Origin: Akkermansiaceae bacterium
GTDB taxonomy: Bacteria; Verrucomicrobiota; Verrucomicrobiia; Verrucomicrobiales; Akkermansiaceae
Direction of reading: 5' to 3'
Length of the DNA: 64,000 bases
NCBI GenBank assembly: GCA_025354565.1
Contig: JANXMQ010000090.1
Coordinates: 1-64,000, forward strand
Made by a program: the position numbers and the translations under genes
Shown: one piece after another, positions 40,546 through 48,317 of the stretch
How positions within the stretch are numbered: position 1 is the first letter of the stretch
Layout: each line of letters begins with the position of its first letter
Notes under the pieces: model-generated
What the model saw: only the letters and a program-made list of their open reading frames with translations
What the model was told of the DNA's origin: nothing
Database searches by the model: none

Positions 40546-42972
40546 TCACTCGTCCTTGATTTTCAGCCGCGGCGGGCGCTTCAACGGGATGCCTTCCTCG
40601 ATGGCGTCGAGATCAAGGCTATCCAACACATTGGTGCGGCGGCGGACGAATCCGGCTTCGGCGGAAGTCGCGGCAAAGCTGGGGATCTCGGTGTGATAGG
40701 GATCATCACCGATCAAAACCGGCTGTTTCGGTCGGACCGGCACCGCATTGAGCGCTGGCGTGTTTAGCATGGCAATGTCGGGATTCACGCCCTCGCCGAG
40801 CGCGCCGGAATGGACAGTGCAGAACGGCAGGTTTTCCGTGCCCTTGCGGAAATACTCGGGCATCGCCGTGGAGCGCGAGCGAATGGTTCCGGTGTTGATG
40901 TCCTCGACATGCTCTTGACAAAACTGCGTCGCGCGTTGGCCGGAAGTTAAGCAGATGGGGATCTCCACCACGCTGGCCGGAGCGGTTAGCTTACCACCGC
41001 CGAAGGAGGGTGCGGCCGCATTCATTGCCGCCTGCCAAACGGGCATCGCCAGATCACGGCTGAACGCACCCGGATAGATCGGCTCGCCATTGCCCAGTAG
41101 AAATCCAGTCCACACGCCGCAGGTAATCCGCTTGTTATAGCCGACGAACCAAGTGTCTGCGAAATCGTGGGTGGAGCCACCTTTTCCCGCGCCGTTGAAG
41201 GGTTTTTCCACCATGCCATCGAGCACGCCACTGGCGCTGCCCCGATAGAGCGAGCCAGCCATCATGCTGTGGACCTGCCATGCCGTCGCCGCGTCGATGA
41301 TCCGCCGGGGCGGTGAGATTTCGTGCGGGCGGCGGAACACCACCCGTCCCTCCGAGTTCTCGATCCGGTCGAGATAGACCAGGCCGCTAGGCGCTGATAG
41401 ACCGCCCGTGGGAAACACGGCCATCGCCTTCACCGCCTGCTTCAAGGGCACCTCATCGAAGCCGACAGCGAGGCGCGGCAGCAGTTCCGCCTTCTGCAAG
41501 GGCAGCCCGAAGGCCACGGCGGTGTCCACCACGCGTTGCAGTCCGATCTGGCCGGCAAACCTAACAGTCGCAGCGATTTTCGAATTTTCCAAAGCCACAC
41601 GCGGTGTGATTTTCCCGGCGTAAACCGGCGCGGCCACTTCCATGCCCCACTCACCAAGGATGCCTTCGCGCCCGTCGATCATCACCGCGCGGTTGTCCAT
41701 CGGCTCGTCCTCCACTAGACTCGCCGGAGTCTTGCTGCCGCTGAGACCGGCGGCATAGATGTAGGGGAAAAAGGCCGTGCCAAGCGGGCGCTTGCCGGAC
41801 TCGATGAAATCAAACGGCACCTGGGCGTAATCCCGCCCGCCGACATGGGCCAGAACCTCGCCGGTTTCATGGTCGATCATGAGCACCGCGCCTTGCAGAT
41901 ATTCCGCCGGCTTGGTGCTGGTTTTTCGATAGTCCGCGTATTTCTGATGGGCGTATCCCGGCCTAGTCTCGGCCCGCGCCAGACTTTCTAACAATGCTTT
42001 CTGCGCGGCGTTCTGGGCTTCGGACAGGATCGTCGTGTGGATCTTGAATTTTCCGGTAGCCAAGCCGTCCTCGCCGAGCGCCGCACCGACCGCATCGGCG
42101 ATCCGTTCATAAAGGTGGGTCGTGCCGCGTCGCAGTGGCTGCGGATTTAGACCGAGCGGCAGGGCCTTGAGCCGGGTCAGATCGGAACTGGAAATCATCC
42201 CCTCCTCACGCATCCGGCCGAGCACGTAGTTGCGCCCGTTGCGGTTGATTTCCGGATTGTTCAAGGGCGAGCGCACGTTTGGGTTCTTGATGAGAGTGAC
42301 CATCGACGCGCATTCCTGCGGCTCCAGATCCTTCGGCTCCTTGCCGTAGTAGCCTAGCGAGGCGGAGCGGATGCCGTAATAACCGCTGCCGAAATAAATG
42401 CGATTCAGATAGAAATTCAGGATTTCCCGCTTCGAGTAGCGGTCCTCGATCCGGCGGGCGAGGAAGGCTTCGACCAATTTCCGCTGCATCGGCGTCTCGT
42501 TCCGCAGCACCGCCTCTTCCTTCAGATTGTAAGCGTTACGCGCCAGTTGTTGGGTGAGCGTGCTGGCACCCTGCTTGCCGCCCTCGGCATTCAGGATGAT
42601 CGCCCGCACGATGCCAATATAGTCCACGCCATGATGCGTTAGAAACCGCGAGTCCTCGCCGGCGCGCAGGGCTTGGATGAAAATTTCCGGGACTTTCTCA
42701 ATCGGGACAACACTGCGGTTCTGGACGAAAATCCGACCGATTTCCTTGCCGTTGCGGTCGAGGATGATGCTTGGCTCCTCAAGGTCGTTGATGCGATCCA
42801 GATCATAATTTGCGGCGCGCTGGCGGAATTCCCGGGTGAAGGCTTCCGCGAACAACCAAGCCGCGCCCCCGAGCATCAGCGAAACGAGGAACAGGCCCAG
42901 CCAAAAACCTTTGCGCTTGAAGAACCAGCGCTTCTTGCTCTTCTTGCGATTCGTTTTTGTGATAGTAGCCAT
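40546..42972 (-). CDS. Class A penicillin-binding protein with degenerate transpeptidase domain
   Basis: The 808-residue inner-membrane protein has one N-terminal helix and a glycosyltransferase-51 domain. That domain keeps EDSRFLTHHGVD (Glu106), GASTLTQQLARN and RKLVEAF, so it should polymerise lipid II into glycan chains. The second domain has the size and order of a transpeptidase, but all three active-site motifs are changed. SxxK is TAFF (399-402), SxN is SKI (464-466), and KTG is KGG (597-599). Crosslinking activity is therefore unlikely, and the domain may be structural. The ATG at 42972 fits the cytoplasmic basic start. Its start codon overlaps that of the divergent methyltransferase gene. 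Confidence 0.9.
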   Translation of the reverse strand: MATITKTNRKKSKKRWFFKRKGFWLGLFLVSLMLGGAAWLFAEAFTREFRQRAANYDLDRINDLEEPSIILDRNGKEIGRIFVQNRSVVPIEKVPEIFIQALRAGEDSRFLTHHGVDYIGIVRAIILNAEGGKQGASTLTQQLARNAYNLKEEAVLRNETPMQRKLVEAFLARRIEDRYSKREILNFYLNRIYFGSGYYGIRSASLGYYGKEPKDLEPQECASMVTLIKNPNVRSPLNNPEINRNGRNYVLGRMREEGMISSSDLTRLKALPLGLNPQPLRRGTTHLYERIADAVGAALGEDGLATGKFKIHTTILSEAQNAAQKALLESLARAETRPGYAHQKYADYRKTSTKPAEYLQGAVLMIDHETGEVLAHVGGRDYAQVPFDFIESGKRPLGTAFFPYIYAAGLSGSKTPASLVEDEPMDNRAVMIDGREGILGEWGMEVAAPVYAGKITPRVALENSKIAATVRFAGQIGLQRVVDTAVAFGLPLQKAELLPRLAVGFDEVPLKQAVKAMAVFPTGGLSAPSGLVYLDRIENSEGRVVFRRPHEISPPRRIIDAATAWQVHSMMAGSLYRGSASGVLDGMVEKPFNGAGKGGSTHDFADTWFVGYNKRITCGVWTGFLLGNGEPIYPGAFSRDLAMPVWQAAMNAAAPSFGGGKLTAPASVVEIPICLTSGQRATQFCQEHVEDINTGTIRSRSTAMPEYFRKGTENLPFCTVHSGALGEGVNPDIAMLNTPALNAVPVRPKQPVLIGDDPYHTEIPSFAATSAEAGFVRRRTNVLDSLDLDAIEEGIPLKRPPRLKIKDE

Positions 42973-44173
42973 GCCTGATCCGAATTCATCACCGCCACTG
43001 CCAGCGGTCACGCGGCTGCAAGACTATGGGATCACGGCGACTCCCGCAACCCTTGCGTTGGGGGAGATTTTACGCGCTCGGATCGCCCGGGACGGTCCCA
43101 TGCGGTTCGCGGATTTCATGGCGGCGGCCTTGTATGAACCGGGCCTCGGCTACTATGCCCGGGCGACGCGTCAGGTCGGGCGGGGTGGGGATTTTTTCAC
43201 CAGCGTCAGTGTGGGGCCGCTGTTCGGCGAGTTGTTGGCCCGGCGATTTCTCCGCGAGTGGCTGGAATCCGGCTCGCCCGCGTGTTGGCGGATCATCGAA
43301 TGCGGAGCCCACGACGGCACGCTGGCGGCAGATGTTCTCGGCGAACTAGCCCGGCTCGACCCGCAGGCGTTTGCCGCGCTTGAATACGCCATCCCCGAGC
43401 CGCTGCCCCTGCTCCAAGCGGCCCAGCGGAAAATGTTAGGCGGGTTCCTTGGCAAAACGCGGTTCGTCACGAATGCCGAAGAACTGACCATCAATCCGCT
43501 GCCGGGCGTCGCCTTCGGCAATGAACTGCTAGACGCGCTGCCGTTTAATGTCGTTGTTAGGAAATCCGCAGGCTGGGGCGAGTGCCGAGTCGCCAGTGCA
43601 GCCATCGGCGGATTCATTTGGGAGGACGAACATGAAATCACCGACCCTGACCTGCTGGCAGCGCTCGCTAAATTAGGGGATGATTTTCCCGTAGGCTACC
43701 GCACCGAGGTCCGCACGAATTTCCAGGACTTTCTCGCACCACTCACCCGCGCTCTCAGTTCCGGCCTGCTCGTATGGCCAGACTATGGCTTCGCACGGCC
43801 CGAATACTATCAACCGGCACGCCACACCGGCACGCTGCGGACCTTTTCCAAACACCGCGCGGCGGAAAATCCCCTCAACTCCCCCGGGAACCTCGACATC
43901 ACCGCCCATGTCGATTTCACCGCCGTCGCCGAAGCTGCCATCGCCCTCGGTAGCCAGCCCGCCGCCTTCCGCAACCAGGGCGCGTGGCTCACGGAAATCG
44001 GTCGCGAGTGGCTGCTCTCGCAGGAAGGCCAGCCACAGTTAGACGCCCGCCGCCAATTCCAAACCCTGACCCATCCCGCCCATCTTGGCGGTAGTTTTCA
44101 GGTGTTGGAAATTTCCTGGAACCAAGCCGGGAAAGTGCTGTCCGCCCCGGACCGCCACCGGCTCGCCTTGTGA
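42971..44173 (+). CDS. MidA/NDUFAF7-type SAM-dependent methyltransferase
   Basis: The 400-residue cytoplasmic protein belongs to the family of mitochondrial MidA/NDUFAF7, which dimethylates an arginine of a complex I subunit. Bacterial substrates are less clear. Family marks are RFADFMAAALYEPGLGYYA, RGGDFFTSVSVGPLFGELLARR, the SAM-binding IIECGAHDGTLAADVL and VAFGNELLDALPFNVV. The frame is open further upstream, but that part is antisense to the neighbouring penicillin-binding protein gene. The ATG at 42971 starts a natural MPDPNSS terminus. Its CATG is shared with the start codon of the divergent gene. Confidence 0.9.
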   Translation: MPDPNSSPPLPAVTRLQDYGITATPATLALGEILRARIARDGPMRFADFMAAALYEPGLGYYARATRQVGRGGDFFTSVSVGPLFGELLARRFLREWLESGSPACWRIIECGAHDGTLAADVLGELARLDPQAFAALEYAIPEPLPLLQAAQRKMLGGFLGKTRFVTNAEELTINPLPGVAFGNELLDALPFNVVVRKSAGWGECRVASAAIGGFIWEDEHEITDPDLLAALAKLGDDFPVGYRTEVRTNFQDFLAPLTRALSSGLLVWPDYGFARPEYYQPARHTGTLRTFSKHRAAENPLNSPGNLDITAHVDFTAVAEAAIALGSQPAAFRNQGAWLTEIGREWLLSQEGQPQLDARRQFQTLTHPAHLGGSFQVLEISWNQAGKVLSAPDRHRLAL

Positions 44174-46049: not shown

Positions 46050-48317
46050 ATGGACCAAGACGGATATGCGCGGATTCTGGATGGCTATGGGTTGATTCGG
46101 TTTATTGGTCGCGGCGGTTTCGGCGAGGTTTGGTTGTGCCGTTCTGAAACGATGGGGGACTTCCGGGCATTGAAATTGATTTCCACGTCAAACCCCGAGT
46201 TGTTGTCGAAGGAATATGAATCGCTTGTGCATTATCGAAAAGCTGCGGCGCTGCTGCGTTGCCCGGATCTGGTCCCTATCGAGCACGTCAATCGTATCGA
46301 ATCCGCGCTCTTCTATGTCATGCCCTTGGCTGATGGCGTAAGCGATCAAGACCCATCAGACGAGGAGTGGAAACCGCAAAGCCTGTCCTCACTGATCCAG
46401 ACGAGAAAAGATGAGCCGTCTTGGTTTTCCAGTAAGGAAGTCATCGCTTTGATCCTCCCAATTCTACGGGGGCTTCAAACTCTCACCTCAGCAGGTCTGG
46501 TTCACCGTGATGTAAAGCCTGACAATATTCTTTTTTTCAATGGAGCGCCTTGCTTGGGTGACATCAGCCTAATGGGTGCAGATGCCTCTGAAATCACTCG
46601 TAGGGGGACTCCTGGATACGCAACGCCTACTTGGTATGTTGGAGGTCACCCCGATATGTTTGGGGTCGCAGCTTCCCTTTATAGCATACTGACGGGGAAC
46701 TCACCTGACAAAATGGGGAGAACTGCGTTCATCTGGCCACCCCTAGGAGAAGAGTCACTTTCGCCAATAGAACGCGCCGAGTGGAAAAGGATTCATGCGG
46801 TCATTCGCCGTGCCACAGATGAGAAGGTTTCGGAGCGTTATCTGGACTTTACCGCGATGGCGGATGCTCTATCCAACGATTCACTCGCGGAATTGAGGCC
46901 GAAAATTAGGCCGAAATCCAAGCCGCTCCGCGTCCTGCTCGCGCTATACTCCTTGATGGGAATAGCTGCCGCTACACTGGCTGTTGCATTCCATTTGCGA
47001 CAGGATCGGCAAGTTAATCCAAAAAGCGAGGTAACAAACAAGACGCCCGTGAAGTCCCTCCCCGAACTGACACCAGAACAGTTGGCGGACTATACAGCGC
47101 ATGCAGGGTTGATTCAGGGTTACATAGGCGACGGCCAGTATGCCAATGCTCTCGCCTCGGTAGAAAACCTGCTGTCCACCTATCCTCAGTCCCGAAGCCA
47201 ACCCGCCTATTCCTTGGCGAGGGCGACGGCACTTGCAGGACTTAAGAGGTATGAAGAAGCAAAGGAAGAGCTTCGGAAAGACGTGAATCTTTCCTCTCAG
47301 ATTACCGCCATGGCCGGTCGCAAGGATCTGTGGCTGGAGCTAGGTGATCTTGAAGGGGCGGAAAAGGACATCACCCGAGTCCTTGATAAATTCGGTCCTA
47401 ACTCATTCGCCCTTTTCCTGCGAGCTGACGTTAAGGCCCAGCGTGACGATTTTGCGGGGGTGGTCGCTGACAAGCACCTTGCCTATGACATTAAGAAAAA
47501 TGATCCAGCGCAGCGGAAACTCGTGGACCTAATGTGGACTCCGCTAGCAGAAAAATATCCGGCTTTCGGTGATTACCTGAAATTTCATCCCGAGCCGGCC
47601 GATAATAATCCCGCTCCCTCCCCCGAACCTTCGAAATTCGCGGATGAAGATGACGAGATCCTCAAAGTGTTCGATGACATCTTGGTGGATTTGATAGAGC
47701 CTGCTAGTCCCGTTTCGGACGCAGCCATCCAAGCAAGAAAATCGACCAAGGAGCGGATTCGAAAGGAGCTGGAGTCCGCAAACTACGCCCGAGCCCTCCA
47801 TACCCTGGATGAAGTCCTATACTCACTCACGGAGCTGCACAACAACCCCGCCATTTCTCTTTTTCGTGCGGCCTTATTGAGGCGCTTGGATCGTCCGTCT
47901 GAAGTCGAGCAAGAGCTTAGGAAGCCCTGCCACTACAATGCAAATGAGAAGGCTGCCGAGGCTCGAACGGTTCTATTGGAGGATTTGCATCGCGAAAAAG
48001 ATGCCGTCACGCTTTTGACACAGTTACTTGAAGGTAGGGAATCCCATAGCCACCTGTCGGGAGAGAAGACGATAGTCCTGCTTCATCTCCGTTCGAAAGC
48101 CCGCGTCGCCCTTGGAGATTTCGCCGGTGCCCATGAAGATTTCCATGAGGCACTGAAGCTTGCGGAAACGGCGTTCAGGGGGGCGGATGGCGATAACCTT
48201 CATGTTGATCCTGACGATTTGAAGCAAATGGGCGATATGATCCGGCAGACCTGGCTATCCCTGCAAGAGAGTTATCCGGGCTACAAGGCATACGTGGCGA
48301 CCTTGCACGAAAAATAA
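46050..48317 (+). CDS. Ser/Thr protein kinase with membrane helix and TPR-like region
   Basis: The 755-residue protein is an N-terminal Hanks-type kinase, one transmembrane helix (about 294-315) and a C-terminal region of about 430 residues. That region has TPR-like repeats (YANALASVENLLSTYPQSR, YARALHTLDEVLYSL) and probably lies outside the membrane. Kinase motifs are GRGGFGEV (20-27), Lys42 in ALKLI, HRDVKPDN (152-159) and GTPGYATPTWY. The metal-binding DFG is DIS (171-173), keeping the aspartate. Nearby are an S9 peptidase and an ECF sigma factor on the same strand. In planctomycetes and verrucomicrobia such kinases often sit with ECF sigma genes, so a signalling link is likely. Confidence 0.92.
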   Translation: MDQDGYARILDGYGLIRFIGRGGFGEVWLCRSETMGDFRALKLISTSNPELLSKEYESLVHYRKAAALLRCPDLVPIEHVNRIESALFYVMPLADGVSDQDPSDEEWKPQSLSSLIQTRKDEPSWFSSKEVIALILPILRGLQTLTSAGLVHRDVKPDNILFFNGAPCLGDISLMGADASEITRRGTPGYATPTWYVGGHPDMFGVAASLYSILTGNSPDKMGRTAFIWPPLGEESLSPIERAEWKRIHAVIRRATDEKVSERYLDFTAMADALSNDSLAELRPKIRPKSKPLRVLLALYSLMGIAAATLAVAFHLRQDRQVNPKSEVTNKTPVKSLPELTPEQLADYTAHAGLIQGYIGDGQYANALASVENLLSTYPQSRSQPAYSLARATALAGLKRYEEAKEELRKDVNLSSQITAMAGRKDLWLELGDLEGAEKDITRVLDKFGPNSFALFLRADVKAQRDDFAGVVADKHLAYDIKKNDPAQRKLVDLMWTPLAEKYPAFGDYLKFHPEPADNNPAPSPEPSKFADEDDEILKVFDDILVDLIEPASPVSDAAIQARKSTKERIRKELESANYARALHTLDEVLYSLTELHNNPAISLFRAALLRRLDRPSEVEQELRKPCHYNANEKAAEARTVLLEDLHREKDAVTLLTQLLEGRESHSHLSGEKTIVLLHLRSKARVALGDFAGAHEDFHEALKLAETAFRGADGDNLHVDPDDLKQMGDMIRQTWLSLQESYPGYKAYVATLHEK

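Follow-up and report, generated by a model that had tools for sequence, protein, structure and literature searches.

Akkermansiaceae carry a conserved PBP1A-like protein with an intact glycosyltransferase domain and a predicted pseudo-transpeptidase domain

Introduction

Class A penicillin-binding proteins (PBPs), classical targets of penicillin, are assumed to be bifunctional, with glycosyltransferase (GT) and transpeptidase (TP) activity in one molecule. In PonA1, the two activities are separable (PMC4483258), and PBP2B of Bacillus subtilis keeps an essential structural role when its TP domain is dead (PMC5656894). Here, we analysed a stretch of 64,000 nucleotides of an Akkermansiaceae genome (assembly GCA_025354565.1, contig JANXMQ010000090.1, positions 1 to 64,000; henceforth the window), in which an earlier note, made from the sequence, had described a class A PBP with all three TP motifs lost. 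The source genome is a 5.1 Mb assembly in 257 contigs.

Results

Gene, domains and motif state

Re-reading of the open reading frame reproduced the coordinates and the sequence given in the earlier note. The ORF listing runs on to a GTG at 43011, and the ATG at 42972 was taken as the start, giving 808 aa, because the N-termini of the orthologs support it over the GTG. The following features were located:

40546..42972, minus strand: class A PBP with a predicted dead TP domain (ORF, 808 aa plus stop)
42808..42921, minus strand: N-terminal membrane-anchor helix, residues 18-55 (hydrophobic segment; helix 18-55 in the AlphaFold2 model)
42211..42750, minus strand: GT51 glycosyltransferase domain, residues 75-254 (PF00912, 182.9 bits)
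42655..42657, minus strand: GT catalytic Glu106 (invariant in 65/65 diverse orthologs)
42535..42564, minus strand: GT motif STLTQQLARN, residues 137-146 (Q142 invariant in 65/65 diverse orthologs)
40873..41910, minus strand: pseudo-transpeptidase domain, about residues 355-700 (PF00905, 24.6 bits; confident predicted fold)
41767..41778, minus strand: former SxxK, T399-A-F-F402 (Thr in 63/65 diverse orthologs; Lys column variable)
41638..41664, minus strand: subfamily loop GILGEWGME, residues 437-445 (G437, G440, E441 and E445 invariant in 65/65; missing from intact paralogs)
41575..41583, minus strand: former SxN, S464-K-I466 (ortholog alignment)
41176..41184, minus strand: former KTG, K597-G-G599 (KGG in 33/35 and KSG in 2/35 genus members)
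40810..40953, minus strand: conserved C-terminal Cys/His residues C674, C685, C718 and H721 (invariant alignment columns)

The Pfam match to the transpeptidase family PF00905 (residues 361-614) is barely significant, its 24.6 bits lying just above the cut-off of 22.1. The best of 13 NCBIfam families was PBP_1a_fam (TIGR02074), at 370 bits and below the cut-off of 508.75, and the monofunctional glycosyltransferase family TIGR02070 scored 91.9 bits, below its cut-off of 182.65; unlike members of that family, the protein has a TP-fold domain. Hence, the protein has two of the hallmarks of a class A PBP, namely a GT51 domain with the catalytic Glu and intact motifs and a C-terminal TP fold (PF00905 and predicted structure), but not the third, as TAFF, SKI and KGG stand in place of SxxK, SxN and KTG. 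Automatic annotation would probably label it a bifunctional PBP1A-type enzyme, since both Pfam domains exceed their cut-offs.

Alignment with the solved PBP1a proteins of P. aeruginosa and A. baumannii was unambiguous, with GTAFFP under GSSFKP/GSTIKP, S-K-I under S-x-N and K-G-G under K-T-G, and upheld the three replacements listed in the earlier note. The GT half, which the note had called intact, is indeed so: in a set of 65 diverse orthologs, none departs from E106, D107 or Q142. The statement that all three TP motifs are lost holds for their function and not for every residue, S464, K597 and G599 being still present. KGG in place of KTG is found only in the genus of the window and its nearest relatives, and the rest of the family mostly has KTG or KSG. 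With the nucleophilic Ser replaced by Thr, the general-base Lys by Phe and the Asn of SxN by Ile, the TP half should be unable to form an acyl-enzyme. Because nucleophile, general base and SxN Asn are gone, we strongly predict that beta-lactams do not label this protein covalently.

Predicted structure

The AlphaFold2 model, built from 29 sequences, reached a mean pLDDT of 82.4 and a pTM of 0.69, and the TP fold was modelled confidently (pLDDT 85-97 in most blocks). Structure comparison matched the model to PBP1a of A. baumannii (Z 44.9, 7.8 A over 491 aligned residues), PBP1a of P. aeruginosa (Z 44.4, 2.8 A over 387) and PBP1b of E. coli (Z 42.8, 5.3 A over 584); the PBP1a/PBP1b matches span both GT and TP, and the high rmsd of some of them probably reflects domain arrangement. 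The model places Thr399 at the N-terminal end of helix 398-410, so that its conservation would be plainly explicable on structural grounds, as the keeping of a hydroxyl at a helix N-terminus.

Conservation across relatives

A search of 59 relatives and the own genome returned a strong ortholog in every genus member except one genome that is 57% complete (G025). All 35 genus orthologs read have Thr at the nucleophile position, Phe or Tyr at the Lys position and SxI or AxI, together with KGG (33) or KSG (2). Every sampled Akkermansiaceae ortholog, including that of Akkermansia muciniphila ATCC BAA-835, has Thr and lacks both the Lys and the SxN Asn. The A. muciniphila motifs are TAIL, SKI and KTG (locus L090); the ortholog is located at about 2,584,491-2,586,791 of the chromosome (G145:C1), and we take the window-type PBP to be present in this human gut bacterium. 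Among named relatives, the best are Akkermansiaceae MAGs, Luteolibacter, Haloferula and Rubritalea. Several public MAG records titled Akkermansia muciniphila are probably mislabelled (L137-L139, L143, L167 and L208): their proteins are far closer to the genus of the window, or in the case of L208 to another group, than to the true A. muciniphila protein.

Across the wider clade (class Verrucomicrobiae), we sampled 168 distinct orthologs, with close relatives over-represented; 166 have Thr at the nucleophile position, 21 keep the Lys (19 TxxK, 2 SxxK) and 63 the SxN Asn. When the tree was calculated with the motif columns removed, the orthologs fell into a single clade (SH-aLRT 100) apart from the intact paralogs; no Akkermansiaceae row has the Lys, and SxxK, SxN and KTG are kept in every one of the 13 paralogs of this tree and in the paralog of the own genome. 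The minimal numbers of changes over the whole tree are three for the nucleophile, nine for the Lys, five for the Asn and 14 for KTG. The earlier note had proposed to look for the motif changes in the same order. Ser and Lys are lost throughout the genus and in every Akkermansiaceae ortholog sampled, and the loss of Ser extends to most of the class-wide clade. Intact motifs in close relatives, by which the note would have been refuted, were not seen; an intact site occurs only in distant genera.

A graded series of active sites

Searches of the families around the two Ser-containing exceptions showed that Ser at the nucleophile position is stable in two distant genera of different families (g13 and g120), mostly together with the Lys. 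Here, 16 rows combine Ser, Lys, the Asn and KTG with Ala443, and Ser without Lys is seen in another two; the queries L127 and L048 are counted here, and they appear again as L264 and L294. In a further 23 rows the site is TxxK with SxN and KTG intact. The later stages read as Thr without Lys, then SKI, and then KGG in the genus of the window, which in these alignments amounts to a stepwise dismantling of Lys, Asn and KTG. The series is read without polarity, so that Ser in g13 and g120 is either a reversion or a retention.

Residue 443 varies with the nucleophile: among the 168 orthologs, T399 occurs with G443 in 166/166 Thr proteins and S399 with A443 in both Ser proteins, and in the search of the exceptions' families we counted 44 T-G and 18 S-A pairs (duplicates included) and a single S-G exception (L287). 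The Ser/Ala443 pairing was seen at loci L127, L264-L275, L048 and L294-L297. This covariation, from only two S-A lineages, is suggestive of a steric contact between the two residues, and the GEWG loop may lie near the old active site.

Selection and a subfamily-specific loop

The median dN/dS was 0.062 for the GT domain, 0.058 for the TP domain and 0.083 for the C-terminal part (42 independent close pairs, some of which include TxxK orthologs; window-type pairs are alike, with 0.066 and 0.067 for the window against L007). On these medians, the pseudo-TP domain is as constrained as the polymerase domain. Among the 346 TP columns, Thr399 ranks 25th in conservation, and the Lys column, which adjoins an invariant Pro, ranks 233rd. 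Fixed differences between orthologs and intact paralogs number 17 in the TP region versus two in the GT region, and many of the former fall in the GEWG loop: the orthologs have GILGEW[GA]xE where paralogs have W-x-P-x-N or similar, in an alignment that is gapped in the paralogs. The loop is also found in the Ser-containing members and is therefore a mark of the subfamily that did not arise only after inactivation. Taken as a pattern in the sequences, this looks like specialisation, not decay, and the purifying selection on the TP domain agrees with the earlier statement that the TP half has not decayed at random.

Other PBPs and gene neighbourhood

The own genome encodes five GT51 proteins. 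Three of them (C58, C43 and C249) have SxxK, SxN and KTG, and C58 is the intact class A paralog. The genome also has two SEDS proteins and three additional, presumably class B, proteins with a TP domain that do not belong to the GT51 set, and an intact bifunctional paralog is present in all genomes checked, A. muciniphila included. Capacity for crosslinking in trans is therefore present.

A second class A PBP of the genus (C24) has seemingly lost its TP site in another way (L064:955-2829(-); also L075:3223-5031(+)), with SAFE for SxxK, FTG for KTG, the SxN stretch largely deleted and a PF00905 match of only 46 residues. In G009, this gene directly follows the intact paralog, and partial matches resembling the C24 type occur in most genus genomes.

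The window PBP is divergent from a methyltransferase gene:

42836-44173, plus strand: PF02636 SAM-dependent methyltransferase, likely ATG at 42971 (Pfam, 172.5 bits)

One CATG at 42970-42973 apparently provides the overlapping start codons of both genes. This shared start is found in most of the genus; an in-frame CATG occurs in most Akkermansiaceae loci (57/79 by a loose test, with some hits off the true start) and is rare in more distant groups. The head-to-head pairing itself was observed in 109 of the scanned loci, some of them duplicates, across Akkermansiaceae and several other groups, and the neighbourhood scan did not find the methyltransferase beside the PBP in A. muciniphila. We know of no functional link between the two proteins. 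Gene neighbourhood was also considered as a guide to PBP function and was discarded, as the Nramp and UspA genes are only local and the sole conserved neighbour, the methyltransferase, suggests no cell-wall role. A 755-aa ORF resembling a Ser/Thr protein kinase with repeats lies nearby (46050-48317).

Discussion

The protein probably is a peptidoglycan glycosyltransferase whose pseudo-TP domain is kept as a non-catalytic scaffold, docking or regulatory module, with crosslinking in trans. Accepting this, its ancestor would have been a bifunctional PBP1A-type enzyme in which the TP domain turned into a conserved pseudo-transpeptidase. The membrane-anchored GT half, judged by its intact catalytic residues, would polymerise lipid II into glycan strands, and the pseudo-TP domain, held under selection, probably keeps the GT domain in place and docks partners or the nascent peptide, perhaps through the GILGEWGxE loop. 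The intact class A paralog would then crosslink the strands, together with the remaining transpeptidases of the same genome. The proposal of the earlier note, a dedicated glycan polymerase with a structural or sensor domain, thus stays our best inference.

In a special form of this explanation, the pseudo-TP domain would bind stem peptide that is still uncrosslinked, leave it uncleaved and, as a sensor, turn the GT domain on or off. The kept fold with several substrate-facing positions (K597, G599 and S464), the new invariant loop between the motifs and the strong purifying selection would all suit such a role, but the SxN and KTG changes in the genus of the window remove the usual contacts with the donor peptide, and we consider this form rather unlikely.

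Less probable still is that the domain remains a transpeptidase, with Thr399 as nucleophile and another residue as base, be it a relic or altered chemistry. Thr is held in 63 of 65 diverse orthologs while the Lys drifts, TxxK orthologs with intact SxN and KTG exist (the 23 rows, and 19 TxxK proteins among the 168), and K597 and G599 are retained in the window protein. As the conserved Thr carries a hydroxyl, residual or altered chemistry may be conceivable, and the orthologs outside the family that combine Thr with Lys, Asn and KTG could be slow but active transpeptidases. In Akkermansiaceae, however, Lys and SxN Asn are both gone, and Phe, Leu, His or Tyr are no substitute for the Lys in the usual mechanism; the new loop has altered the surroundings of the site, and substitutions of the Ser are reported to inactivate PBPs completely (PMC5656894).

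That the TP domain is a passive leftover, decaying under relaxed selection on an important glycosyltransferase, would fit the variable Lys position and KTG with their nine and 14 changes, yet it appears highly improbable given a TP dN/dS equal to that of the GT domain, the invariant subfamily-specific motif and the full-length domain throughout the clade. The 257 contigs of this MAG might raise the suspicion of faulty sequencing or assembly, or of a mutation private to it; this is rejected, because independent genomes of the genus carry the same changes and Thr without Lys is also found in genomes of a single contig, among them G004 and A. muciniphila G145.

Beyond the window, we tentatively suggest a class-wide pseudo-transpeptidase family within the class A PBPs, with A. 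muciniphila among its carriers, in which the dead domain may have gained a conserved function (peptide sensing or partner docking via the GILGEWGxE loop) that controls glycan polymerisation, with each step kept in living relatives, from SxxK with GEWA over TxxK and TxxX to the fully dismantled site. This reading is possible and less secure than the non-catalytic module proposed for the window protein.

In a family to which a major human gut symbiont belongs, there would thus be a branch whose polymerase is kept and whose penicillin target has been lost in nature, with the domain itself preserved. With the graded natural series, one can test directly what TP domains do apart from crosslinking, and whether this activity and polymerisation must share one molecule. 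A search of the open-access literature, which extended to TxxK and to Akkermansia PBPs, gave no description of a natural, conserved TP-dead class A PBP; with this scope, priority is not established. The passages found in the V. spinosum essential-genome paper list no class A PBP.

With the PBP1A family (TIGR02074; Pseudomonas and Acinetobacter PBP1a), the window protein shares the GT51 and TP architecture, the fold, the membrane anchor and the intact GT residues, and it differs in the changes from Ser to Thr, Lys to Phe, Asn to Ile and KTG to KGG, in the GILGEWGxE loop and in a score under the TIGR02074 cut-off. Like the monofunctional glycosyltransferases MtgA and S. aureus SgtB, it is predicted to carry out glycan polymerisation only; these enzymes have no TP domain, whereas the window protein keeps a full-length pseudo-TP domain under selection. 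A further parallel is B. subtilis PBP2B with a dead TP domain, which is free of catalysis and has a structural role while another PBP crosslinks (PMC5656894), a role that would be similar in the window protein. PBP2B S309A, however, is a class B laboratory mutant without a GT domain, whereas the inactivation predicted here is natural and family-wide.
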